Positions 1 through 13,225 of a stretch of DNA of 13,225 nucleotides are shown in pieces. The position numbers were made by a program, and so were the translations under genes. Location of the stretch: positions 1 through 13,225 of the forward strand of contig SKPU01000014.1 of the NCBI GenBank assembly GCA_007119335.1, given 5' to 3'. This stretch comes from Syntrophomonadaceae bacterium. Its GTDB lineage: Bacteria; Bacillota; Dethiobacteria; DTU022. Each line of letters opens with the position of its first letter. Position 1 is the stretch's first letter. A model generated the notes under the pieces. The model was not told where the DNA came from. It worked only from the letters and a program-made list of their open reading frames with translations, and did no database searches.

Positions 1-604
1 AATCCCTTAACTTTTCATAAGATCCGGCCGCTGCAGCAGCCATTTCGAAAATTATCCTAATATTTTGATCGTCGAAGGAGGTAAAAACAATTGGTTTATC
101 ACAGTGAAGAAGCAGGGAGGCAAACTGATGCAGATCCCCTTTTGCTGCCGGGACATCGCTTGGGATTCCGTAACTCATTGCAAAATCCAGGTTGGGCAGC
201 TTATCAAGCAGCTTTGCTGTATTGATTATATCCTGTTTTACAGAACTGCGTCTTTTCCCGGTTTCCAGATCCAGGTGATATGGAAGATCGGAGCCAGTGC
301 CGTAATAGGTGCAGTTGCTTTCAAGGTTCATGGCCGGATGGGCATGACGATTATAAATATTGATTTTCGAGGGAGCCAACCTGATTGCTTCATCAACCAG
401 CCATCCCGGAATTTTAGCAACACGGTCCTTAACCAGGCAGCCGGCATCTTCGAGAAGCTGCAGCGCTTCATCGTGATCTATCCGCACCCCGGCCCTTTCG
501 AGCACATCGATGGTTGCGCTGTGGATTTCTTCGAGCTGACTTGTGCTAAACCAGATTAACTGTGGCGACAACTGCTCTTGATAATTGGAACGGTAAGCTG
601 TAAT
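1..604 (-). CDS. MttB-family (trimethylamine methyltransferase-like) corrinoid methyltransferase, N-terminal part, cut by the left edge
   Basis: The minus strand encodes 201 codons of the MttB superfamily, whose members move a methyl group from quaternary or tertiary amines to a corrinoid protein in the cytoplasm. Seen: an opening segment LSPQLIWFSTSQLEEIHSAT followed by a VLERAGVRI block, then DEALQLLEDAGCLV, PGWLVDEAIRLAP, YYGTGSDLPYHLDLETGKRR and MSYGIPSDVP, all typical of the family N-terminus. Family members are about 470-500 residues, so more than half is missing, including the region where trimethylamine-specific MttB carries pyrrolysine; substrate class cannot be read. No ATG, GTG or TTG follows the ribosome binding site GGAGG. 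The best start is ATT at 604 (8-base spacing, protein begins TAYRSNYQ after the initiator), or ATA at 607; TTG at 571 lies too far away. It starts 51 bases after hutP and should be co-transcribed with it. Family certain, start and substrate not. Confidence 0.88.
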   Translation of the reverse strand, partial: MTAYRSNYQEQLSPQLIWFSTSQLEEIHSATIDVLERAGVRIDHDEALQLLEDAGCLVKDRVAKIPGWLVDEAIRLAPSKINIYNRHAHPAMNLESNCTYYGTGSDLPYHLDLETGKRRSSVKQDIINTAKLLDKLPNLDFAMSYGIPSDVPAAKGDLHQFASLLLHCDKPIVFTSFDDQNIRIIFEMAAAAAGSYEKLRD

Positions 605-655: not shown

Positions 656-1093
656 CTACAAGTGATTAAGGCCCAGGCCGATTGTTTCGTGCTCGTAACC
701 CTTGATGGGTGCACCTATCGTCCCGTAAAGCACCACAGCCAGCCATTCACCATCATCCCGGTTATCAGATGTGCGCGGGCCTCTTACTACGGTAAAGATC
801 AGACCCACCGTCCGCAGCATGTTCCCCAGACCGAGCTGACCCCGGCAAATACCGACAAAGGCATCTAAAATAGCATGGTAGAGGGCATGAGTATCACGGT
901 AATGCTCACCCCTGACAAGGCCTTCACGCTGTGCAGCAGTCTCTACGGCAGCAAAAATTTTTTCGGTGCTCATAGAACCGACTTTTCCCTTGATCATTTT
1001 AAAGCCGTTAGTTTCAGCTGATTCTTTGATTTGTTCTTCCAGTTCTCCATCGGAAAGGGCATACATGAGCGCTTTTTTCCCTATAGATTCCAT
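656..1093 (-). CDS. hutP: HutP, histidine-responsive RNA-binding antiterminator of the hut operon
   Basis: This 145-residue protein matches HutP (about 148 residues in Bacillus). HutP hexamers bind L-histidine and a divalent metal, then bind NAG triplets in leader RNA and stop an intrinsic terminator from forming. Seen: GKVGSM (36-41), YRDTHALYHAI with His69 and His73, RGQLGLGNMLRTVGL (84-98), and LYGTIGAPIKGYEHETIG with His135. The three histidines correspond to the metal-binding His73, His77 and His138 of the Bacillus protein, so the regulator looks intact. The start ATG has AAGGCGG nine bases upstream. In Bacillus hutP precedes hutH and the attenuator lies between them; here hutP follows hutH, so HutP would control its own production through the attenuator upstream of hutH. 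Confidence 0.96.
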   Translation of the reverse strand: MESIGKKALMYALSDGELEEQIKESAETNGFKMIKGKVGSMSTEKIFAAVETAAQREGLVRGEHYRDTHALYHAILDAFVGICRGQLGLGNMLRTVGLIFTVVRGPRTSDNRDDGEWLAVVLYGTIGAPIKGYEHETIGLGLNHL

Positions 1094-1194: not shown

Positions 1195-2745
1195 TTAACT
1201 CAAATCAACTTCCTGCTCCACCGCTTCAACAAGCTGTCCGCTCGATACCATTTCAAATGCCCTGTCAAGCAGTGGATAAAGGATCTGATCCTTTTCCAGA
1301 AATTTCACTTCCTCACGCAGCAGCTTATATGCCGCTTTTGTTCCGCGACCCAGGCACTCCGCACCCCTGAAATCGATAGCCTGGGCAGCAACTAGCAATT
1401 CAATACCGATCACCCTTGAAACGTTTTTGACCACCTGACGGGCCTGGCGGGCAGCAGTCGTGCCCATACTGACATGATCCTCCTGATTGGCTGAGGAAGG
1501 GATAGAATCCACGCTGGCCGGATGGCATAAGCCCTTATTTTCACTAACCAGCGAAGCAGCTGTATATTGCGCAATCATCAGCCCGGAATTAATCCCGCCA
1601 TCCTTGATCAAGAAAGGTGGCAAACCGCTCAGGGCAGGATTAACCAAACGCTCGATCCGCCGCTCTGCAATACTGCCCAGTTCAGCTACCGCCATAGCCA
1701 AGAAATCCATAGCCTGCGCTACCGGCTGACCATGGAAATTTCCGCCGGAAAGGACCCGTTCTTCTTCAGGGAAAAGGAGCGGATTATCATTGACCGAGTT
1801 TATTTCTATATCAAGAATACCATGTACGTAATCAAGGGCATTAGCTGTAGCTCCATGGACCTGGGGGATACAACGCAGACTATAGGCATCCTGAACTTTT
1901 TTCTCATTACTGCCGATCAGGGTGCTTCCTTCCAGTAAACGCCGAATTACTTCTGCTGCAGATCGGTGGCCCTTGTACGGCCTGACTCCGGCTATTAAAG
2001 CATCAAAAGCATCAGGAACAGCCAGTTGTGCTTCAAGGGTCAGGGCAGAGGTAATCATAGCCGCTTTCAGTAAATTTTCTGCGTCGACAAAAGCAAGTGA
2101 GCCAATTGCTGTCATAATCTGGGTTCCGTTAATCAGAGCCAGGCCCTCTTTTTCAAGCAGGGTAATCGGCTCCAGACCCGCTGCTGCCAGGGCATCCGCA
2201 CCGCTCATTATTTCACCCTGGTAATAAGCTTCACCTTCGCCGGTTAAAACCAGGGCCAGGTGTGAAAGTGGGGCCAGGTCGCCACTGGCGCCAAGGGACC
2301 CCTGCTCGGGTATGAGCGGAACAACGCCCCTGTTTAAAACTTCAAGCAGCTGTTCGACAAGCTGGGGGCGAACCCCAGAACATCCTCTTGCCATGGCGTT
2401 TGTGCGAAGCAAAAGGGCAGCGCGGACCACTTCTTCAGGCAAAGGCTCCCCTACAGCGGCAGCATGGCTGGAAATCAAATTCTTTTGAAGCTTGATCGAA
2501 TTTTCTCTTGAAATATTTACGTCGCAGAACCGTCCGAAGCCGGTAGTTATCCCGTAAACTACAGCTTCCTGATCAACCAATCTTTCCAGCATCACGCGGG
2601 AGGCGACAATTCGCTCTCGCGCTTCTGGGTCGATACTGACCGGTCGGGACTGCCGAGCCACAAAATGGACATCCGCAACGGAAAGGTTTTCTCCGCTTAA
2701 GACCAGGGGCTCACCTGTTTCATAAAACTGGTTTACTAAATTCAT
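1195..2745 (-). CDS. hutH: Histidine ammonia-lyase
   Basis: A full-length 516-residue cytoplasmic enzyme that removes ammonia from L-histidine to give urocanate, the first step of histidine breakdown. Seen: the self-cyclising Ala153-Ser154-Gly155 triad inside GSLGASGDLAPLSH, which forms the MIO cofactor; YGITTGFG (64-71); SHAA (93-96); INGTQ with Asn206; QDAYSLRCIPQVHGAT; FHGQP; and SIPSSANQEDHVSMG. These are the normal active-site blocks of true histidine ammonia-lyases, so nothing points to a tyrosine/phenylalanine lyase or an ergothionase. GGGAGG lies eleven bases before the ATG. It is the first gene of a minus-strand unit followed by hutP and the MttB-family gene, and sits behind a HutP-type attenuator. 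hutU, hutI and later genes of the pathway are absent from this window. Identification is secure. Confidence 0.97.
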   Translation of the reverse strand: MNLVNQFYETGEPLVLSGENLSVADVHFVARQSRPVSIDPEARERIVASRVMLERLVDQEAVVYGITTGFGRFCDVNISRENSIKLQKNLISSHAAAVGEPLPEEVVRAALLLRTNAMARGCSGVRPQLVEQLLEVLNRGVVPLIPEQGSLGASGDLAPLSHLALVLTGEGEAYYQGEIMSGADALAAAGLEPITLLEKEGLALINGTQIMTAIGSLAFVDAENLLKAAMITSALTLEAQLAVPDAFDALIAGVRPYKGHRSAAEVIRRLLEGSTLIGSNEKKVQDAYSLRCIPQVHGATANALDYVHGILDIEINSVNDNPLLFPEEERVLSGGNFHGQPVAQAMDFLAMAVAELGSIAERRIERLVNPALSGLPPFLIKDGGINSGLMIAQYTAASLVSENKGLCHPASVDSIPSSANQEDHVSMGTTAARQARQVVKNVSRVIGIELLVAAQAIDFRGAECLGRGTKAAYKLLREEVKFLEKDQILYPLLDRAFEMVSSGQLVEAVEQEVDLS

Positions 2746-3164: not shown

Positions 3165-3869
3165 ATGACCCCTTTGAGTCTCGCCCTCGCCCTCTTCTGG
3201 TTTTCAAACTTTTACGATGAATACCTTGGCTTCATCCAGTTTATTATTCGCCGCTGGGATCGAGTGATAGAATACACATTTAACCACTTTTCCCTGGTGC
3301 TTACAGTAATGTTTTTCTCTCTCATCTTATGGATATCGGTCGGCCTGATTATCAGCCGTTACGAAAAACTGGCCAGCACTGCTTTCGGTATTGGTAATAT
3401 CCTCTTTGTCATTCCCAGTATCTCATTATTTGGCATATTCATTACAATCCCTATGCTTGGTCTGGGCAGGACTTCTGCAGCCCTGGCCCTTATTTTATAC
3501 GCCATGATGCCTATGATCCGCAACGTATACCGGGGCATAAAGTCGGTGGAGTGGCCGATCTTAGATGCCGCGCGGGGGATGGGTATGTCCGCAAAGCAGA
3601 TTCTCTTCCAGATCCAGATCCCCATAGCCTGGCCTATAATCTTTGCAGGCATCCGGGTAACAGTCGTTATGATTACCGGTATAGCCACGGTAGCAACATT
3701 TATAGGCGAAAGAAACCTGGGCAGATTTATTCATCACGGTATCGCCCGGGAAAGTGCGGATATGATTATCGCCGGAGCAGTTATCGTCTCTGTCATTGCT
3801 ATCCTGCTTGATTTCGTTTTAGGCAAGATCGAATATAAGATCACTTCTCCGGGATTGAGAAGAGTGTAA
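3165..3869 (+). CDS. OpuC/OpuB-type ABC transporter permease (quaternary amine uptake), first permease
   Basis: A 234-residue inner-membrane permease of the glycine betaine/carnitine/choline (OpuB/OpuC, also EgtU-like) family. Seen: several hydrophobic segments (about 42-64, 72-98, 103-120, 155-180, 198-220) and the EAA coupling loop DAARGMGMSAKQILFQIQIP (134-153) that docks on the ATPase. The family's usual glycine-rich motif after the EAA loop (as GGGGMG in the second permease here) reads GERNLG (181-186), a charged variant. GGGAGG sits eight bases before the ATG. It is the first gene of the operon, whereas the Bacillus opuC operon begins with the ATPase. The substrate is not readable from a permease; a quaternary ammonium compound or betaine is likely. 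Confidence 0.9.
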   Translation: MTPLSLALALFWFSNFYDEYLGFIQFIIRRWDRVIEYTFNHFSLVLTVMFFSLILWISVGLIISRYEKLASTAFGIGNILFVIPSISLFGIFITIPMLGLGRTSAALALILYAMMPMIRNVYRGIKSVEWPILDAARGMGMSAKQILFQIQIPIAWPIIFAGIRVTVVMITGIATVATFIGERNLGRFIHHGIARESADMIIAGAVIVSVIAILLDFVLGKIEYKITSPGLRRV

Positions 3870-3899
3870 GGATCGCCATCTTTAAGGAGGTCAGAAACC

Positions 3900-4874
3900 T
3901 TGATCGTATTAGATAAAGTGGACAAGGTTTTCCCCGGTTCAACCATACCTGCTGTAAACCAGATCAGTTTTCAGATTGACGAAGGAAATATTTGTGTTTT
4001 TGTAGGACCTTCCGGGTGCGGCAAAACCACTATTCTGCGCATGATAAACAGGTTGGTGGAGCCAACCGGCGGTGAAATTTATATCAAGGGCAAGAAAGTG
4101 AGCGACAAGGAAGTTAACCCTGATGAACTGCGCCGCGAAATCGGTTATGTCATCCAGCAAATTGGCCTGATGCCTCACCGAACCGTAGAACAAAACGTGG
4201 CCCTGGTTCCCCGTCTGCTTAAATGGCCTGAAGAAAAAATAAGCCTTCGGGTAAAAGAACTTTTAGAAACAGTCGGGTTGGATGCCGAAGAGGTCTCAAG
4301 AAAGTATCCTTACCAGCTAAGCGGTGGTATGATGCAGAGGGTCGGGGTAGCCCGGGCTTTAGCTGCTGACCCTCCGATTATGCTGATGGACGAACCCTTC
4401 GGGGCAGTGGACCCTATTGTCCGGGGACGCCTTCAAGATGAATTCTTAAGACTGCAAAAAGCATTGAAAAAAACAATCTGTTTTGTTACCCATGACATAA
4501 ACGAAGCGATTAAGATGGGCGATCATATTGTGATTATGAACAAGGGTGAGCTGGTCCAGCATGGCACACCTATGGAGATATTGTGCAATCCTGCCAATTA
4601 TTTTGTAAAAGATTTGATCGGAACAGACCGGGAAATCAAGCTGCTGGAACTGACCAAATCCGAAGAGCTGGTCACCCGGACCAAAAATATTCCGGAACAA
4701 ATCATAGAAAAGGACAGTTTTATCCTGGCCATTGACCCGGTTCAAAGAGCCCTGGAAATCATGATGAAAAAGAACTCTGACCTGGTAGGAGTCCGTGATG
4801 GAGCAGAAATGATTGGAACCATCAGCTGGGAAGATATTAAAAAGCATATCAATATGATTAGTGGTGATAACTGA
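3900..4874 (+). CDS. OpuC-type ABC transporter ATPase with short C-terminal CBS-like region
   Basis: A 324-residue ATP-hydrolysing subunit of a betaine/quaternary amine importer on the cytoplasmic face. Seen: Walker A GPSGCGKTT (36-44), Q-loop QQIGLMPHRT (86-95), signature LSGGMMQRVGVARAL (140-154), Walker B MLMDEPFGAVDP (161-172) and switch His198 in FVTHD. Residues from about 235 on, ending VGVRDGAEMIGTISWEDIKKH, resemble the end of a CBS domain. OpuCA-type proteins of about 380 residues usually carry two CBS domains, which sense ionic strength or cyclic-di-AMP; here there is room for little more than one, so osmotic gating may be reduced or absent. The start is TTG at 3900, nine bases after AAGGAGG. 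Its stop overlaps the next start by one base (TGATG), implying translational coupling. Confidence 0.94.
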   Translation: MIVLDKVDKVFPGSTIPAVNQISFQIDEGNICVFVGPSGCGKTTILRMINRLVEPTGGEIYIKGKKVSDKEVNPDELRREIGYVIQQIGLMPHRTVEQNVALVPRLLKWPEEKISLRVKELLETVGLDAEEVSRKYPYQLSGGMMQRVGVARALAADPPIMLMDEPFGAVDPIVRGRLQDEFLRLQKALKKTICFVTHDINEAIKMGDHIVIMNKGELVQHGTPMEILCNPANYFVKDLIGTDREIKLLELTKSEELVTRTKNIPEQIIEKDSFILAIDPVQRALEIMMKKNSDLVGVRDGAEMIGTISWEDIKKHINMISGDN

Positions 4875-5521
4875 TGGATTTTGAAATGGATAGGTTCATG
4901 ATTGCCTTGCTGGATCGTTCGCCACCGCATGCTTTAGAACACCTCCAGCTGGTCCTAATTCCTGTGGTTGTAGCTTTTATAATCGCCTTCACCGCAGCGG
5001 TGCTTTTAACCCGCGAGAGATATGTCAAGTACACCGACCGGGTTATGACAGTATTTAATATTGGCCAGACTATTCCGCCCCTGGCTGTGATAGCTGTTTT
5101 CTTTCCCTTTCTGGGATTGGGACGCGAGCCGGCTCTTTTTGCCCTGACCATATATGCCCTGCTTCCCATTGCCAGAAATACCCTGGCCGGATTAAAAGGG
5201 GTTCCCGGTGATGTAAAGGATGCAGCCCGGGGAATGGGCATGACTGAGTGGGAAATGCTCTTCAAAGTAGAGATACCTCTAAGCATGCCTGTGGTCATGG
5301 CTGGAATAAAGATTTCTGTAGTCCTCACCTCCGGAACAGCAGCCCTGGGCGCCCTGGTAGGTGGAGGAGGCATGGGAGCGGTTATTTTTGCCGGTATTGA
5401 TTTTTTCAGGGCTGAACTAATTGTTGCAGGAACCCTTATAATTGGTGTAATCGCCATTACTTTAGATCGGCTCCTGACTTTAATTGATGATATGCTTACT
5501 CCTCCGCATATGAAAGCTTAG
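4874..5521 (+). CDS. OpuC/OpuB-type ABC transporter permease, second permease
   Basis: A 215-residue inner-membrane permease, close to the usual OpuCB/OpuCD length. Seen: hydrophobic segments at about 26-46, 57-82, 86-104, 135-160 and 180-205, and the EAA loop DAARGMGMTEWEMLFKVEIP (116-135) followed by the glycine-rich GALVGGGGMGAVIFAGI typical of the family. It overlaps the ATPase stop by one base. With the first permease it would form the heterodimeric channel. No terminator is visible in the 94-base gap before the binding-protein gene, so that gene probably belongs to the same transcript. Confidence 0.93.
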   Translation: MDFEMDRFMIALLDRSPPHALEHLQLVLIPVVVAFIIAFTAAVLLTRERYVKYTDRVMTVFNIGQTIPPLAVIAVFFPFLGLGREPALFALTIYALLPIARNTLAGLKGVPGDVKDAARGMGMTEWEMLFKVEIPLSMPVVMAGIKISVVLTSGTAALGALVGGGGMGAVIFAGIDFFRAELIVAGTLIIGVIAITLDRLLTLIDDMLTPPHMKA

Positions 5522-5584
5522 TTTTAAATAAGGCCAAAGGAAGGTGATAGATGATTTAATTAACTTTTTAAGCTTAACCAATAA

Positions 5585-5603
5585 TTATTTTTACTAAAAA
5601 TAA
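5585..5603 (+). promoter_or_regulatory. AT-only inverted repeat just before the binding-protein ribosome binding site
   Basis: TTATTTTT (5585-5592) and AAAAATAA (5596-5603) form a perfect eight-pair inverted repeat with a three-base loop, ending right before the AAGGGGG ribosome binding site of the binding-protein gene. Being all A-T it is weak as RNA. It may protect the downstream message or tune its translation, since binding proteins are commonly made in excess; it could also be chance in AT-rich DNA. Confidence 0.25.
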
Positions 5604-5615
5604 GGGGGTAATATT

Positions 5616-6566
5616 TTGATGAGATTCATGAAAGTTAGCGTACTGGTTTTGATCATCGGATTGCTGGCTTTGTCGATGTTCGGCTGCAATGCTGCAGAAG
5701 AGGTAGTTGAGGAGGATGAAGAAAGAGGCACGGTGGTAGTAAGCTCTAAAACTTTTCCTGAAGCACTTACCCAGGGGTGGCTGACCTACTATCTGCTGGA
5801 AGAGCGAGGCTATGATGTGGTAAACGAAATAGGCCTTGGTGAAGTAGCAGTAATTCGTCCTGCCCTGGAAGCCGGAGAGATCGATCTGTACTGGGAGTAT
5901 ACCGGAACAGGCCTGATGAACGTAATGGGTTATGAAGGTGACGAGCTCCCGGAAGGAGAAGAAGAAACCTACCAGACCATTCGCGACTACGACTTAGAAG
6001 AAAACAATATCGTCTGGTTAGACTATGCTCCAGCCAACAATACCTTTGTCCTCTTTGTAACCGAAGAGACCCAGCAGGAATATGGCTGGGAAACCTTGTC
6101 TGACTTAGCAGAGTACGCCAGGGAAGAAGGTGGCGGTGAATACGGAAGCATTGCTACTCCTGCTGAATGGGTAGAACGGGATGATGGCATGGTTCCTTTC
6201 CAAAACCATTACGGTTTTGAATTCGCTGATGTGGTGGAAGTTGAACTGGGCCTGGCTTACAGGGCAGTTGAACAGGGCGAAGCATTAATCGGGGTCGGAG
6301 ATGCCACAGAAGGCAGGATCGTCCAATACAACCTGCAAATTCTCGAAGATGATGAAGAATTCTTCCCCGCCTACAATGCAGCACCTACTGTACGCCAGGA
6401 AGTTTTAGAAGCCAATCCCCATCTCGAGGATGACTTAAGAGAAATATCATCCCGCCTGGATATAGAGACCCAGACCAAACTTAACTTAAAAACAGCTATA
6501 GATGAAGAAGATCCTGAAGATGTAGCCTGGAATTTCCTGGTTGAAGAAGGCTTGATTGAAGAATAA
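5616..6566 (+). CDS. OpuC/EgtU-like substrate-binding lipoprotein for a quaternary ammonium compound
   Basis: A 316-residue binding protein of the OpuAC family (periplasmic-binding type, betaine/choline/carnitine/ergothioneine class). Seen: a lipoprotein signal with a basic start, a hydrophobic stretch (7-23) and lipobox MFGC with Cys24; then TVVVSSKTFPEALTQGWL, the family hallmark LYWEYTGTGL (91-100), and YAPANNTFVLFV. Aromatic residues in this family cage the trimethylammonium group. By hand count the mature chain has about 73 Asp/Glu against about 14 Lys/Arg, extremely acidic and unlike the cytoplasmic neighbours. Translation may start at TTG 5616 or at ATG 5619, both served by AAGGGGG. 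It is the last gene of the transporter operon; the substrate is unproven. Confidence 0.92.
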   Translation: MMRFMKVSVLVLIIGLLALSMFGCNAAEEVVEEDEERGTVVVSSKTFPEALTQGWLTYYLLEERGYDVVNEIGLGEVAVIRPALEAGEIDLYWEYTGTGLMNVMGYEGDELPEGEEETYQTIRDYDLEENNIVWLDYAPANNTFVLFVTEETQQEYGWETLSDLAEYAREEGGGEYGSIATPAEWVERDDGMVPFQNHYGFEFADVVEVELGLAYRAVEQGEALIGVGDATEGRIVQYNLQILEDDEEFFPAYNAAPTVRQEVLEANPHLEDDLREISSRLDIETQTKLNLKTAIDEEDPEDVAWNFLVEEGLIEE

Positions 6567-8219: not shown

Positions 8220-9842
8220 ATGGACCTTATTTTCCACAACGGGCGGATTGTCACGATGGATGAGGAGCAGGAAGCAGCACAGGCAGTAGCAATAAAAAAT
8301 GATAAGATTACTTCTATTGGCAGTAATGAACAGATCCTGGCCCTCAAAGAAGCAGGCAGTGAAATAATTGATTTGAAAGGTAGAGCCCTTTTGCCCGGTT
8401 TTAACGACAGTCATATGCACCTGATGGAGTATGCCCAGAACCGGACAAAGGTTGACCTGCGTCACTGTAAAAGTGTTGAGGAAATCATAGAAACCACCAG
8501 GAATTTTATTAACAAGCGCAACATAAACAAAGGTGAGTGGGTTTACGGCTGGGGATGGGATCATGGCCTTTTCCAGGAAAAGCGGATGCCCAATCGCCAA
8601 GATCTAGACCGGGCCTCTTCCGATCACAGGATTGCTATTACGCGAACCTGCTGCCATATCATGGCGGTTAACACCCTTACATTGCAAAAAATTGGCATTG
8701 AGCAAAAGCCCGCTGCTGTTGAAGGTGGTAATGTGGATACTGATGAGCAGGGAACGCCTACCGGCATTCTTGAAGAAAAAGCGATGAAGCTGGTAAACGA
8801 TCTGAAGCCGCCTCTTGACGAAGAGGCTCTAAAAGACTTAATTAAACAGGCGGCCGGGGACTTTTTATCTGCCGGACTAACCTCGGTGCAAACCGATGAT
8901 CTGGCTTTCCTGGGCAGTGATCTGATGCCGGTGTTGACCGGTGCCTACCAGGAACTCGAATCAGCAGGTGGCCTCAATCTGCGGGTTAATTTGCAATGCC
9001 TGCTGCCTAGTGTGGAAGAGCTGCAGGCCGCACTTGATCGCGGTTACCGCACCGGGCAAGGTGGGCCTTATTTTAAAATCGGCCCTCTTAAGCTTTTAAC
9101 CGATGGTTCGCTCGGGGGTCGCACCGCCCTTCTTTCGGAACCGTATGATGATAGTTCACCATACCAGGGTGTGGAGGTGCTTTCCGTTAAAACATTGGAA
9201 GCCCTGGTTAATCTGGCTTCTGAAAGAAAGATGCAGGTGGCTACCCATGCTATCGGCGATTTAGCGGTGGAAAGAGTCCTTAATGCTTATGAAAAAGCAG
9301 CCCGGCGTTATCCCCAGGCCGATCCCCGTTACCGGATAATCCATGCCTCCATGGCTACCAACGAGCTGTTAGAGCGTTTTAAGAAGCTTGATATTATTGC
9401 CGATATCCAGCCTCCGTTTATCCCTTCCGATTATATTATAGTGGATTGGCACCTTGACGAAAAAAGGGCGTCATGGACTTACCGCTGGAAAGATTTTGTT
9501 AAGCAGGGGATCAAGTTGTCCGGTGGTTCGGATTGTCCGGTAGATGATTACCCTCCGTTAGAGGGAGTCCATGCGGCAGTAACCAGGCAGGACAAGAAGG
9601 GTAACCCGCCAGGCGGCTGGCACCCCGACCAATGTTTAAGCCTAAAAGAAGCTCTTTATATCTATACAATGGGTTCCGCTTACAGCAGTTTCGAAGAAAA
9701 TGTCAAGGGCAGCATTACAGCCGGTAAATTTGCAGACCTGGTGGTTCTTTCAGATGACATAACCAGCCTGGAGCCTGATGAAATCAAAAATCTTCAGGTC
9801 GATCTGACTGTTGTCGGCGGCAAAATTTTTTACAGCAGGTAA
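8220..9842 (+). CDS. YtcJ-type metal-dependent amidohydrolase (amidohydrolase_3 family)
   Basis: A 540-residue cytoplasmic hydrolase of the amidohydrolase superfamily, YtcJ/NfdA-like group, which cleaves amide or formamide bonds with metal help. Seen: N-terminal beta domain, the metal motif GFNDSHMHL with His65 and His67, KIGPLKLLTDGSLGGRTA (286-303), His343 in ATHAIGD, His375 in RIIHAS, and Asp438 in GGSDCPVDD; all expected metal or catalytic positions are present. The end KGSITAGKFADLVVLSDD is the usual C-terminal beta region. Length is normal (about 530-550). The ATG is preceded by AAGGAGGAG and is the first gene of a plus-strand operon; 19 bases separate it from the first dehydrogenase. 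The substrate is unknown; no signal peptide is seen. Confidence 0.92.
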   Translation: MDLIFHNGRIVTMDEEQEAAQAVAIKNDKITSIGSNEQILALKEAGSEIIDLKGRALLPGFNDSHMHLMEYAQNRTKVDLRHCKSVEEIIETTRNFINKRNINKGEWVYGWGWDHGLFQEKRMPNRQDLDRASSDHRIAITRTCCHIMAVNTLTLQKIGIEQKPAAVEGGNVDTDEQGTPTGILEEKAMKLVNDLKPPLDEEALKDLIKQAAGDFLSAGLTSVQTDDLAFLGSDLMPVLTGAYQELESAGGLNLRVNLQCLLPSVEELQAALDRGYRTGQGGPYFKIGPLKLLTDGSLGGRTALLSEPYDDSSPYQGVEVLSVKTLEALVNLASERKMQVATHAIGDLAVERVLNAYEKAARRYPQADPRYRIIHASMATNELLERFKKLDIIADIQPPFIPSDYIIVDWHLDEKRASWTYRWKDFVKQGIKLSGGSDCPVDDYPPLEGVHAAVTRQDKKGNPPGGWHPDQCLSLKEALYIYTMGSAYSSFEENVKGSITAGKFADLVVLSDDITSLEPDEIKNLQVDLTVVGGKIFYSR

Positions 9843-9861
9843 AACGAAAGGAGGAAAACAA

Positions 9862-10614
9862 ATGGCTCGATATGAAGATTTAGAAGGTAAAAGGGTCCTG
9901 ATCACCGGTGCAGCAAGAGGTATCGGCCTCGCTACCGCTCAGCGTTTTGCTGCTGAAGGCGCTAACGTAGTTATTTTGGACCTGGACCAGGAAGCCCTAA
10001 ATCAAGCATTAGCTGACAACCCTTCTTTCTGGGGAGGCATTACAGCCGATGTCAGCGATCCCGGTTCCGTAAAAAATGCTTTTCAAAAAAATGACGAAAT
10101 CCTGGGAGGCATCGATGTTTTAATTGCCAATGCCGGGATCAGCATTCGCAAACCTTTTCTGGAAATAACTGCAGAACAATGGCACAAAGTAATCGGGGTT
10201 AATTTGAATGGAATCTTTTTATGCTCCTCTCAGGCTGCCGCCCGGATGAAGACTCAGGGTGGCGGAGTAATCCTGATGACAGCATCAACTAACGGCACTG
10301 AAGGACATCCTAATTATGCCGATTACAATGCCTCGAAAGCGGGAGTCATCCTCCTGGCGAAAACAATGGCCCTAGAACTGGCCCCTGAAATCAGGGTTAA
10401 TGCGGTATGCCCCGGTTACGTTTTAACTGAAATGCAAAAAGCAGAATATACCGACGAAATGTTTGAGGCTGTAAACGAAGAAATACCAATTAAACGCCAT
10501 GCCGAGCCCAGGGAAATAGGCTCCTTATTTGCTTACCTCGCTTCTTCTGAAGCTTCATATATAACCGGTGCCGATGTTCGCATTGATGGCGGTGAGACAG
10601 CCGGCCTTCCATAA
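9862..10614 (+). CDS. Short-chain dehydrogenase/reductase (first of a tandem pair)
   Basis: A 250-residue classical SDR oxidoreductase acting on an alcohol/ketone with a nicotinamide cofactor. Seen: TGAARGIG (15-22), Asp40 at the end of beta-2 (VVILDLD), which favours NAD over NADP, NAG (90-92), Asn114, Ser142 in TAST, catalytic Tyr155 and Lys159 in YNASK, and the PGYVLTEM segment. I chose ATG 9862 because AGGAGG lies six bases upstream; an in-frame extension to 9811 would overlap the amidohydrolase and is not needed for the fold. Between the amidohydrolase and a second SDR it probably oxidises a hydroxylated intermediate of the same pathway. FabG-like annotation would be misleading here, since no fatty acid synthesis genes are near. 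Substrate unknown. Confidence 0.92.
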   Translation: MARYEDLEGKRVLITGAARGIGLATAQRFAAEGANVVILDLDQEALNQALADNPSFWGGITADVSDPGSVKNAFQKNDEILGGIDVLIANAGISIRKPFLEITAEQWHKVIGVNLNGIFLCSSQAAARMKTQGGGVILMTASTNGTEGHPNYADYNASKAGVILLAKTMALELAPEIRVNAVCPGYVLTEMQKAEYTDEMFEAVNEEIPIKRHAEPREIGSLFAYLASSEASYITGADVRIDGGETAGLP

Positions 10615-10665
10615 AGAACAATCTTTCCTTAAAATAATGTTTAACTACAAAGGGGGAAGTAGCTT

Positions 10666-11436
10666 GTGCAGATGAAATCTGACCCGATGCAAATAGAAAA
10701 TCAAGTTGTGGCGGTAACAGGAGCAGCTTCAGGAATAGGATTGGGTTGCGCCCGTTTCCTTGCGGAACAAGGGGCAAATATCGCTTTGTTTGATGTCGAT
10801 CAAGAAAAAGGGACCAAAGCTTCAGAAGAAATCGGCAAAAATGCCTTTTTTATATACTGTGATGTTACATCGGACAGTTCCTGCCGGGAAGCTGTCGAAT
10901 ATGTGGAAAATAATTATGGCAAAATAAATGCCCTGGTAAACTGCGCCGGTGTAATCCGCAGGAAAACTGTAGTAGAGTTGACAGAAGATGAATGGGACCT
11001 GGTTCTAAATGTGGGCCTTAAAGGCGTCTACCTGGTTTCCAAATATGTAATTCCCGTGATGGCCAAACACAAGGGAGGCAGTATCGTTAACATTGGATCG
11101 GGCTGGGGGATTAAAGGAGGACCCAGGGCGGCAGCATACTGCGCGGCAAAAGGAGGTGTAGTAAATATGACCCGGGCCATGGCGATAGACCACGGCCCCC
11201 AAAATATCCGGGTGAATTGTATTTGCCCCGGTGACGTTGACACCCCTTTATTAAGGGACGAGGGCCAGCAAATTGGTAAAGATTTAGATGAGTGGCTGCA
11301 CGAAAGCGCCGATCGACCCTTAAACAGGTTGGGTAACCCTGAGGATATCGCTAAGGCGGTATACTTCTTGGTCAGCAGTTTATCGACATGGGTCAGCGGC
11401 GCCATGTTGGTAGTTGACGGTGGTGGAACAGCATAA
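10666..11436 (+). CDS. Short-chain dehydrogenase/reductase (second of a tandem pair)
   Basis: A 256-residue classical SDR. Seen: TGAASGIG (18-25), Asp43 in ALFDVD (NAD preference), NCAG (92-95) in place of the usual NNAG/NAG, Ser145 in NIGSGWG, catalytic Tyr158 and Lys162 in YCAAK, and the C-terminal GAMLVVDGGGTA. GTG at 10666 follows GGGGG by nine bases; ATG at 10672 is an alternative. It differs clearly from the preceding SDR, so this is not a recent duplication; two SDRs in a row suggest two separate oxidations, or an oxidation and an epimerising reduction, of one substrate. It ends 19 bases before the GcvPA-like gene with AAGGAGG between, consistent with one operon. Confidence 0.92.
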   Translation: MQMKSDPMQIENQVVAVTGAASGIGLGCARFLAEQGANIALFDVDQEKGTKASEEIGKNAFFIYCDVTSDSSCREAVEYVENNYGKINALVNCAGVIRRKTVVELTEDEWDLVLNVGLKGVYLVSKYVIPVMAKHKGGSIVNIGSGWGIKGGPRAAAYCAAKGGVVNMTRAMAIDHGPQNIRVNCICPGDVDTPLLRDEGQQIGKDLDEWLHESADRPLNRLGNPEDIAKAVYFLVSSLSTWVSGAMLVVDGGGTA

Positions 11437-11455
11437 AAATGAAGGAGGATTATTT

Positions 11456-12847
11456 ATGTCTGAAAAATTTGTGCATCCCTACATACCTAATTCGAATCCG
11501 AAAATCCAACGGGAGATGCTAGAGGCAATAAATGTTCAAGATATCGAAGAATTATTTGCCTCTCTCCCGGATGATCACAGGTTTAAAGGAAATCTGGAAC
11601 TTCCCAAACCACTGCTTTCGGAGGCCTCTTTAAAGAAACATGTACATGGTATTTTGGCTAAAAATCAAACCTCGAGTGAATACTTAAGCTTTTTAGGCGG
11701 AGGCTGCTGGAACCATCATGTCCCCGCAATATGTGACGAGATCGCCAACCGCAGCGAATTCCTTACCGCCTACGCCGGTGAACCCTATGAAGATCACGGC
11801 CGCTTTCAGGCCCTGTTCGAATATACCAGTATGATGGCTGAACTTTTGGATGTGGATGTGGTTAATGTACCTACCTATGACGGTTCCCAGGCAGCGGCCA
11901 CTGCCCTCAGAATGGCCTGCCGGATCACAAACCGCCCGGAGGTCCTGGTCGCCGGCTCAACCGCCCCGAATCGTCTCTCCGCTATCGAAGGCTACCTCTA
12001 TCCGGATATCAAGGTAAAGCACATTGCTTTCGATCCGGCAAGCGGCCTTATGAACATGGATGATTTGTCTGGTAAAATTTCAAAAGAAACCGGGGCTGTC
12101 TATCTTGAAAACCCGGCCTACCTGGGGTACATGGAAACCCAAATTCAAACTATATCCGCATTAGCACATCAAAATGGCGCCCTCTCGGTAGCCTGGGCCG
12201 ATCCTTCTACACTTGGCATTCTTAAACCGCCCAGTAATTATGAGGTAGATTTAACCTGCGGCGAAATTCAACCTTTGGGGCTCCACATGGCCATGGGTGG
12301 CAGCAGGGGCGGTTTCATTGGCTCGCCGGACGAAGAACGCTTTATTCAAGAGTATCCATCACGCCTTTTTGGTATTGCCCCGACCACCCACAATGAATGG
12401 GGCTTCGGTGATGTGGCCTGGGAACGGACATCATTTGCCAACCGGGAAAACCCCAGGGAATTTGTCGGAACAGCTTCGGCGCTGTGGGGTATAACAGCCG
12501 GAGTTTATTTGGCCCTTTTAGGACCGGAAGGCATGCGTAAACTGGGCGAGAACTGCTTGAAAAGAACTGCTTACGCCCTGAATAAATTGTCCGCTCTTTC
12601 GGGAGTTAAAGCTCCCGCTATCGGCCGCAATTTTTTTAAAGAGTTTGCGATCAATTTTGATGACACCAATAAAAGCGTGCGTGAAATAAATAATCAGCTG
12701 ATGGAAAACGGCATTATGGGTGGCCACGACCTCTCAAAACAATACCCGCAATTAGGAGAAAGCGCCTTATACAGTTTTACCGAAGTCCACAGTAAAGAAG
12801 ATATCGATTGTCTGGTCAGTGTTTTGGAATCGATCATAAGGAGGTAA
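11456..12847 (+). CDS. gcvPA: GcvPA-like protein (subunit 1 of a two-subunit P-protein), non-canonical
   Basis: A 463-residue PLP-fold (type I aminotransferase-like) protein related to glycine dehydrogenase (decarboxylating) subunit 1, which with subunit 2 decarboxylates glycine and passes the aminomethyl group to lipoyl H-protein. Family likeness: the PNSNPKIQREMLEAINVQDIEELF opening (residues 11-34), YLSFLGGG, LFEYTSMMAELLDVDVVN, YDGSQAAATAL, GGSRGGFIGS and GGHDLSKQYPQLGESALYSFTE. Oddities from memory of Bacillus GcvPA: the YTAYTPYQPEISQG block is replaced by LTAYAGEPYEDHGR (103-116), GAGVYDHY by GGGCWNHH (81-88), and the QHIRRDKATSNIC block by WERTSFANRENPREFVGTAS (322-341). Several usual glycine-site positions are thus changed, so the substrate may not be glycine. 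ATG 11456 follows AAGGAGG. No gcvT or gcvH is seen nearby. Confidence 0.88.
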   Translation: MSEKFVHPYIPNSNPKIQREMLEAINVQDIEELFASLPDDHRFKGNLELPKPLLSEASLKKHVHGILAKNQTSSEYLSFLGGGCWNHHVPAICDEIANRSEFLTAYAGEPYEDHGRFQALFEYTSMMAELLDVDVVNVPTYDGSQAAATALRMACRITNRPEVLVAGSTAPNRLSAIEGYLYPDIKVKHIAFDPASGLMNMDDLSGKISKETGAVYLENPAYLGYMETQIQTISALAHQNGALSVAWADPSTLGILKPPSNYEVDLTCGEIQPLGLHMAMGGSRGGFIGSPDEERFIQEYPSRLFGIAPTTHNEWGFGDVAWERTSFANRENPREFVGTASALWGITAGVYLALLGPEGMRKLGENCLKRTAYALNKLSALSGVKAPAIGRNFFKEFAINFDDTNKSVREINNQLMENGIMGGHDLSKQYPQLGESALYSFTEVHSKEDIDCLVSVLESIIRR

Positions 12848-12850
12848 ATT

Positions 12851-13225
12851 GTGAAGATGGCTGTGCATACAATAATACGTGATTTTCATCAAGCCCGCTG
12901 GGATGAACCAATAATTTACGAAATGACAAACCCCGGTGAAATAGGAATAAAACTGCCGGAAATTGAACCGGAAATTGACACTGAAACCGGCAATATTGAT
13001 CAGCTAATACCGAAGAAACTTTTGCGTTCCAACTCTCCGGCCTTACCGGAAATGTCTCAAATGAGGGTTCTTAAGCATTACCTGCACCTATCACAGGAAA
13101 ACCTGGGAGCCGATTTAAACGTTGATATTGGCCAGGGGACCTGTACCATGAAATACAGTCCCAAGATAAACGAAAATTTTGCATCTTCCCCTAAAATAGT
13201 AGATTTACATCCCCTGCAAGATGAA
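12851..13225 (+). CDS. gcvPB: GcvPB-like protein (subunit 2 of a two-subunit P-protein), non-canonical, cut by the right edge
   Basis: The first 125 codons of a protein related to glycine dehydrogenase subunit 2 (about 480-490 residues), which binds PLP. It begins at GTG 12851 (ATG 12857 is possible), three bases after the GcvPA-like stop, with AAGGAGG inside the preceding gene's last codons, so translation is coupled. Seen: IIYEMTNPGEIGIKLPEIE, PALPEMSQMRVLKHYLHLSQ, TCTMKYSPKINE (97-108) and LHPLQDE, all family blocks. The canonical FYPLGSCTMKY reads VDIGQGTCTMKY, changing the loop just before the conserved TMKY. This matches the unusual motifs of the partner subunit and suggests they evolved together for another substrate. 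The PLP lysine lies beyond the window and cannot be checked. Confidence 0.9.
   Translation, partial: MKMAVHTIIRDFHQARWDEPIIYEMTNPGEIGIKLPEIEPEIDTETGNIDQLIPKKLLRSNSPALPEMSQMRVLKHYLHLSQENLGADLNVDIGQGTCTMKYSPKINENFASSPKIVDLHPLQDE

Follow-up and report, generated by a model that had tools for sequence, protein, structure and literature searches.

The closest described systems are the glycine dehydrogenases (P-proteins) of the glycine cleavage system: the two-subunit GcvPA/GcvPB of Thermus thermophilus (1WYT/1WYU) and the single-chain GcvP of human (GLDC), Synechocystis and E. coli, whose two halves are homologous to the subunits of the pair studied here. In the accessible part of PMC7259800, Y161 and Y164 of human GLDC are given as active-site residues and Q366, I372, R373 and K376 as the H-protein interface predicted from a docking model, while the accessible part of PMC7850488 supplies the roles of the pyridoxal 5'-phosphate (PLP) lysine, the ring Asp and the phosphate-site His and Asn. 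Here we analysed a divergent pair, which we call PA' and PB', located at the right end of a 13,225-nt stretch of a Syntrophomonadaceae bacterium (assembly GCA_007119335.1, SKPU01000014.1). This stretch, the window, spans the whole of contig C52 in the host genome G000, which is 58% complete.

11456..12847, plus strand: PA', GcvPA-like subunit 1 (463 amino acids), with ATG at 11456, a stop codon ending at 12847 and an AGGAGG ribosome-binding site.
12851..13225, plus strand: start of PB', GcvPB-like PLP-binding subunit 2 (first 125 amino acids), truncated by the contig end.

Compared with the T. thermophilus pair, PA'PB' forms a separate clade, lacks a loop tyrosine, replaces a predicted H-protein-binding arginine and reads GTCTMK for GSCTMK, and only the PA'PB' side has invariant D113 and E218 (PA') and D245, R414, H446 and T456 (PB'). 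The same differences separate it from single-chain GcvP, whose PLP half aligns with PB' at the lysine K297, with the addition that two genes take the place of one. Canonical GcvPA/GcvPB pairs also differ from it in their setting, since PA'PB' occurs in genomes without detectable GcvH or GcvT and has a partner gene resembling AcoX. Other fold type I enzymes (sphingosine-1-phosphate lyase, class V aminotransferases, cysteine desulfurases) show 9–18% identity in the listed structural alignments, which reflects general fold kinship only. Judging from sequence comparisons, we propose with a probability of roughly 0.65 that PA'PB' would be a PLP lyase or decarboxylase that needs no H-protein and acts on another amino compound than glycine.

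To describe the altered motifs we aligned 40 PA' with 30 canonical PA and 38 PB' with 30 canonical PB; a second set of alignments holds the best database relatives (121 PA' rows and 122 PB' rows, query rows included). L045, a duplicate of the genome of L012, was left out of all counts and the PA' of L071 (364 amino acids, at a contig end) was retained, while the PB comparison leaves out L048, L071, the 125-residue piece of the window and the canonical PB of L091 and L105. The canonical sets, which are not exhaustive, derive from 20 regions, L057, L059, L060, L083, four plasmids and 1WYT, with a human segment added for PA and L068 plus two single-chain halves for PB.

An earlier note on this DNA, made from the letters alone, had suspected a decarboxylase for another substrate because signature motifs looked altered in both subunits. 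The change of the YTPYQPE-type block to YAGEPYEDHGR is real (PA' residues 106–116). The equivalent of human Y164, a tyrosine in 30/30 canonical PA, is deleted in 40/40 PA', and the equivalent of S169 is Asp in every one of the 40. Among the best database relatives, Y-[A/G]-G-E-P and D113 are found in all 121 PA' rows. D113 and E218 are new invariant polar residues of PA'. A second block (PA' residues 317–339), in which GDVAWERTSFANRENPREFVGT replaces the LQTREQHIRRDKATSNICT type, is likewise changed, but the note went too far in calling it unrelated: the HIRRDK block aligns, R374 followed by an acidic residue at 375 is found in 40/40, and it is the other positions that are replaced. At the predicted H-protein interface, the R373 equivalent is Arg in 1/40 PA' (replaced in 39/40) against 30/30 canonical PA, and neither Gln at Q366 nor Ile at I372 is found in any of the 40, against 29/30 canonical PA for each. 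Mapped onto glycine-site and H-protein contacts, as the note had proposed, the alterations in PA' therefore include an active-site tyrosine (Y164) and a predicted H-protein contact (R373).

What is probably the rest of PB' lies at the start of contig C55 in this genome (G000:C55:2-880, L010), with about 336 nt missing between the two pieces. The C55 piece covers PB' residues 242–531 and is 75% identical to P0006, the PB' of the sister locus L012, and the window piece is 72% identical to P0006 residues 15–129, while both are only 37% identical to the canonical GcvPB of G000. The ends of C52 and C55 show no overlap; on these identities, C55 probably continues C52. An AcoX-like gene of the ATP-NAD-kinase family directly follows PB' on C55, and the place immediately to the right, for which the note had raised gcvH or gcvT, is taken in this probable continuation by the AcoX-like kinase and a Na+/H+ antiporter.

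PB' combines altered and strictly kept positions. The replacement of FYPLGSCTMKY by VDIGQGTCTMKY (block at 13121-13156) is genuine, and the serine of GSCTMK, to which Synechocystis S529 was assigned by counting along the alignment, is Thr in 37/37 PB' with a letter at that position and Ser in 30/30 canonical PB. An extra residue precedes GTCT in 28/38 PB' and is not universal. GTCT, D245, R414, H446 and T456 are present in all 122 rows of close relatives; D245, R414 and H446 are new invariant polar residues, and R414, considered as a possible counterpart of the Arg that binds the alpha-carboxylate in other fold type I enzymes, lies on a predicted strand in the C-terminal part of the AlphaFold model. 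The PLP lysine K297, the PLP-ring Asp D270 and the neighbouring H296 are found in 38/38 diverse and 122/122 close PB'. This last result bears on the idea of a catalytically dead paralogue kept for structure or regulation. Altered signature motifs would fit it, as would a related cluster in G060 (L086:2857-9540, with PA', PB', AcoX-like and SDR pieces by BLAST; SDR, short-chain dehydrogenase/reductase) that is split into many short open reading frames, by either decay or an assembly error. A dead enzyme is nevertheless very improbable, given the invariance of the three PLP-site residues and the fact that both subunits group alike across several phyla.

The relationship of the pair to verified glycine dehydrogenases had been left by the earlier note to a tree, and in the trees of both subunits it falls outside them. 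In the PA tree, built with a careful method, a single branch with support 100/100 divides the new (40 rows) from the canonical (29 rows) sequences, and in the PB tree, for which only the quick method was used, one branch with an SH-aLRT of 100 divides 38 new from 30 canonical sequences. The human sequence was left out of the tree, and some branches among the canonical rows were flagged as long by the tree tool. In their respective trees, the window PA' and the C55 PB' both have the genome of L012 as sister, and further groupings are common to both trees (Rhodococcus with Sphingomonas and Gemmobacter; the f15 and f80 families), which suggests that the two genes travel together.

The clade is found in Bacillota, Actinomycetota, Alphaproteobacteria and a haloarchaeon, and the source names of some listed matches add Asgard archaea, Synergistaceae, Aminicenantes and Aerophobetes. 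Four relatives in other species share the altered motifs. In the phylum of the window, 27/398 sampled genomes carry PA' (28 places, at least 393 bits; next best match 285), and in that of Thermoactinospora 2/396 do (442 and 451 bits; next best 242). Eleven plasmid records match PA' at E <= 1e-60. Eight are PA' with 38–46% identity (two Rhodococcus, Sphingomonas, Gemmobacter, Roseicitreum, Paracoccus, Antarctobacter and Natronosalvus), and the remaining three, with 30–34% identity, are taken as canonical. Database searches returned at least 6346 and at least 7187 matches at E <= 1e-60, canonical proteins possibly included, and the best 120 of each were inspected. The residues invariant over 121 PA' and 122 PB' rows, together with the clean score gaps, rule out chance or decay as the cause of the altered motifs; the argument against random decay made from the window alone is thereby borne out.

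The strongest argument that the reaction is not aminomethyl transfer to lipoyl-GcvH is the presence of an intact pair where no H- or T-protein is detectable. GcvH was not found in 8/31 carrier genomes by a search that detected it in 10/14 known genomes. In seven of these eight (G319, G320, G024, G284, G243, G067 and G399) there was no canonical GcvPA among the strong matches listed; the eighth is the incomplete G000, with a partial canonical GcvPA. GcvT, which the control search detected in 11/14 known genomes, was not found in six of the seven genomes searched, namely the GcvH-less G067, G320, G243, G024 and G399 as well as G000, and was found in G185. Completeness is 99% for G067, 94% for G320, 94% for G024 (7% contamination) and 92% for G243. 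In genomes where GcvH, GcvT and canonical GcvPA are not detectable, PA'PB' does not act as the P-protein in a glycine cleavage system. Because G000 is 58% complete, its own lack of GcvH and GcvT says little; gcvT, gcvH and a lipoate gene are missing from the open reading frame list of the window contig, as first noted. The domain PF03099, which covers biotin and lipoate ligases together, occurred in 8/8 genomes, once in G320, G243, G024 and G000 and twice in G067, G399, G185 and G350.

The host does have the second, canonical pair that the earlier note had thought worth looking for. It lies on contig C258 (L011) in the order canonical gcvPB, partial gcvPA, an open reading frame without a Pfam match, a radical-SAM gene and, at the contig end, a lipoate-ligase-family gene. 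The order in L083 resembles it, with an alanine-dehydrogenase-like open reading frame (by eye) in between. Domain scans of L083 and C258 gave a ligase-family match in both and a disulphide-oxidoreductase match in L083. Two radical-SAM genes beside canonical gcv were considered and not upheld, the Radical_SAM domain matching one of the two in C258 and L083 and the other having no Pfam match at 1e-5.

These results also bear on whether PA'PB' might be a genuine second glycine dehydrogenase with drifted motifs that still passes an aminomethyl group to GcvH. Family models would say so: PA' matches PF02347 at 2e-52 in the Pfam scan and scores 460 bits against NCBIfam NF001696 (cut-off 364), the PB' of L012 scores 546 bits against the NCBIfam GcvPB model (cut-off 441), and all 31 carrier genomes exceed the GcvPA cut-off, so that both subunits pass as equivalogs. 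GcvH was found in 23/31 carriers, at least 4/40 loci (L057, L059, L060, L068) have canonical gcv genes no more than 9 kb away, and an AcoX-like gene adjoins a dihydrolipoamide-dehydrogenase-type gene inside a canonical gcv run (L083; G350). We consider this reading distinctly unlikely, since 7/31 carriers lack both GcvH and canonical GcvPA (with no GcvT in the five of them searched), the pair lies outside the canonical clade in both trees, and Y164 is deleted and R373 replaced alongside fixed new residues.

The most constant partner of PA'PB' is the AcoX-like gene, which also counts in favour of the proposed enzyme. The product of the partner gene matches PF01513 (6e-15) and PF20143 (2e-16) in a Pfam scan, searches of PDB (at 0.01) and NCBIfam (at 0.001) gave no match, and the motif GGDGTARD or GGDGTARN is found in 6/6 aligned AcoX-like proteins. 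In 30/40 loci, or 30/37 assessable ones (the window, L052 and L071 end soon after PA'), a gene of this type shares the strand of PA' at a midpoint-to-midpoint distance of up to about 4.5 kb; it was not found near PA' in L047, L050, L054, L055, L062, L069 (680 nt upstream only) and L074. It is downstream in 21/30 loci and upstream in 9/30 (L067, L085 and the Rhodococcus and alphaproteobacterial loci). At the level of genomes, it is present in 22/27 with PA' against 2/371 others (Fisher 3e-29, uncorrected for kinship), and one of the two exceptions is G060, which holds fragments of the broken PA'PB'-AcoX-SDR cluster. All eight PA' plasmids carry it (about 55 kb from PA'PB' on the Natronosalvus plasmid), against 5 of the other 72,548 plasmid records.

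The AcoX-like label derives from the domains and the GGDGT motif, and the likeness to the acetoin system is that a kinase-like gene accompanies a carbanion-forming enzyme in both settings, the difference being that here it adjoins PA'PB'. According to the accessible part of PMC10943186, AcoX of P. putida was required for acetoin dehydrogenase activity after transfer of the operon to E. coli, is reported there without acetoin, NAD or pyruvate kinase activity, and is needed in a species-specific manner. AcoX-like genes are also seen in other company. A HisC-like PLP enzyme directly follows one in L080:7677-9745, L081:7668-9727 and Peptoclostridium L113:8992-11068; the HisC-like enzymes of L080 and L113 reach neither the HisC nor the CobD cut-off, that of L081 is 52% identical to that of L080, and the arrangement is possibly another kinase plus PLP-enzyme pair. 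In L084 the AcoX-like gene stands between DeoC-family and nucleoside-phosphorylase-type genes.

Mechanistically, PA'PB' would be a two-subunit PLP-dependent enzyme descended from P-protein and working without lipoyl H-protein. An amino compound other than free glycine would form an external aldimine on K297 of PB', and a bond at the alpha-carbon would be broken, most likely by decarboxylation in view of the descent, with retro-aldol-type cleavage as a possibility. The resulting carbanion would be protonated or trapped by a small electrophile and not passed to lipoyl-GcvH, while the AcoX-like kinase would phosphorylate the substrate or the acceptor. In some cassettes SDRs, N-deacylases, amidohydrolases or beta-galactosidases may free the substrate from conjugates or oxidise the product, so that the whole would be a catabolic module outside the glycine cleavage system. 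We advance more tentatively, as a somewhat doubtful extension, that pair and kinase together perform lipoate-free P-protein chemistry, in which a phosphorylated substrate or acceptor replaces the lipoyl arm and C-C bonds are made or broken. If this were true, AcoX, known as a kinase-like protein of acetoin operons, would gain a general function beside carbanion-forming enzymes.

A related proposal keeps glycine as substrate or product and lets another electrophile take the place of lipoate. The PLP-stabilised carbanion could react with an acyl donor, an aldehyde or a ketone by chemistry of the ALA-synthase type; alternatively, glycine could be released when a beta-hydroxy or a beta-keto amino acid is split. 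Descent from a glycine enzyme agrees with this, the gcv genes close to at least 4/40 loci could consume glycine made by the pair, the SDRs within 5 kb of 20/40 loci could oxidise a beta-hydroxy group, and AcoX is known from the operons of another carbanion system (PMC10943186, accessible part). We regard it as unlikely: one of the two active-site tyrosines is deleted, and there are carriers without detectable glycine cleavage genes.

Several observations weigh against an H-protein-independent enzyme for another amino compound. The equivalent of human Y161 is retained in 31/40 PA', R374 is invariant, K376 is still Lys in 22/40 (Arg in another 2) compared with 26/30 Lys and 4 Arg in canonical PA, and Arg stands at the R373 position in 7/121 close PA' relatives; the H-protein interface itself is a published docking prediction and not an experiment. 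The phosphate-site Asn N294 (mouse N756) is kept in 29/38 PB' and is Met in 9/38, a Rhodococcus, alphaproteobacterial and haloarchaeal group, and because of this variation we lowered our confidence from 0.66 to 0.65. Each of the two AlphaFold models shows one subunit alone, and confidence is low in the altered loops. Some AcoX-like genes are found away from PA'PB', and those of G350 and G243 do not adjoin the pair. Among the seven GcvH-less genomes without canonical GcvPA, completeness is low for G319 (72%) and G284 (61%). Finally, since most carriers have GcvH and some loci lie near gcv genes, a link of PA'PB' with glycine metabolism is possible; the runs of L057, L059, L060 and L068 also hold open reading frames resembling a lipoate ligase, a dihydrolipoamide dehydrogenase and a pair of radical-SAM proteins.

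Taken globally, the active-site tyrosine, docking, tree and, in some genomes, partner tests speak against filing PA'PB' as a glycine dehydrogenase, despite the model cut-offs that it passes, and on these comparisons it should not be so filed. Existing annotation misleads because both subunits pass the NCBIfam equivalog models for glycine dehydrogenase: this is the name given to each of the 7 annotated plasmid copies and to the named database matches, and genomes carrying PA'PB' are probably mislabelled. The accessible part of PMC11227167 uses gcvPA/gcvPB as markers of the reductive glycine pathway in uncultured lineages, and reconstructions of this kind may wrongly count PA'PB'. Searching the literature by titles and the starts of abstracts, with most subscription journals outside the coverage, we found no paper on a GcvPA/GcvPB paralogue with another function; the clade is widespread and, apparently, not yet studied.

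The remaining genes of the window, and the gene that adjoins the AcoX-like gene on C55, are as follows.

8220..9842, plus strand: Amidohydro_3 amidohydrolase (domain scan), heading the same-strand gene run.
9862..10614, plus strand: second SDR-family dehydrogenase (domain and family scans).
10666..11436, plus strand: SDR-family NAD(P)-dependent dehydrogenase (domain and family scans), 19 nt 5' of PA'.
3165-6566, plus strand: glycine betaine-type ABC transporter, consisting of a permease, an ATPase, a permease-like open reading frame (unscanned) and an OpuAC/OsmF-like binding protein.
1195-2745, minus strand: histidine ammonia-lyase HutH.
656-1093, minus strand: histidine-utilisation antiterminator HutP.
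2-571, minus strand: MttB-family methyltransferase, truncated by the contig start.
L010 (C55):2082-3494, minus strand: Na+/H+ antiporter-family gene, adjoining the AcoX-like gene; the same family is found downstream in L012.

Gene calls in the context scripts are longest-ORF (open reading frame) heuristics, no gene finder having been used. The plus-strand run 8220-13225 comprises five genes separated by about 19, 51, 19 and 3 nt, and it is likely to be an operon because of these short gaps and the ribosome-binding sites before both PA' and PB'; the sister locus L012 shares the order SDR, SDR, PA', PB'. Terminator-like sites in the window were not enriched over shuffles (4 observed against 7.1 expected). 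The SDRs and the amidohydrolase that the earlier note had listed as neighbours were recovered by the domain scans at 8220-11436. The amidohydrolase, which we take to be YtcJ-type, is a possible N-deacylase of the pathway.

Across loci, PA' has an SDR similar to those of the window at a distance of up to 5 kb, with both strands counted, in 20/40 cases, an association weaker than that of the AcoX-like gene because SDRs are common. The other neighbours vary: amidohydrolase, M20/ArgE/DapE deacylase, FmdA/AmdA amidase, acyl-CoA synthetase, hydantoinase B, in one case a primary-amine oxidase, many types of transporter, and beta-galactosidases of GH2 (L047, L054) or GH42 (L014, L015). The neighbours of PA'PB' across loci point to no single substrate, and because they differ between loci, PA'PB' appears to be a core step that draws on differently conjugated precursors. 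Pieces of M20 and amidohydrolase genes, identified by eye, were also seen near the broken PA'PB' copy of L086.

In L012, a dimethylamine methyltransferase (Dimeth_Pyl) open reading frame lies beside the PA'PB'-AcoX unit (L012:12213-13262, plus strand) and contains an in-frame TAG followed by about 110 open codons, as expected for a pyrrolysine codon. It is followed by a B12-binding protein gene, an antiporter and an MttB-family gene.

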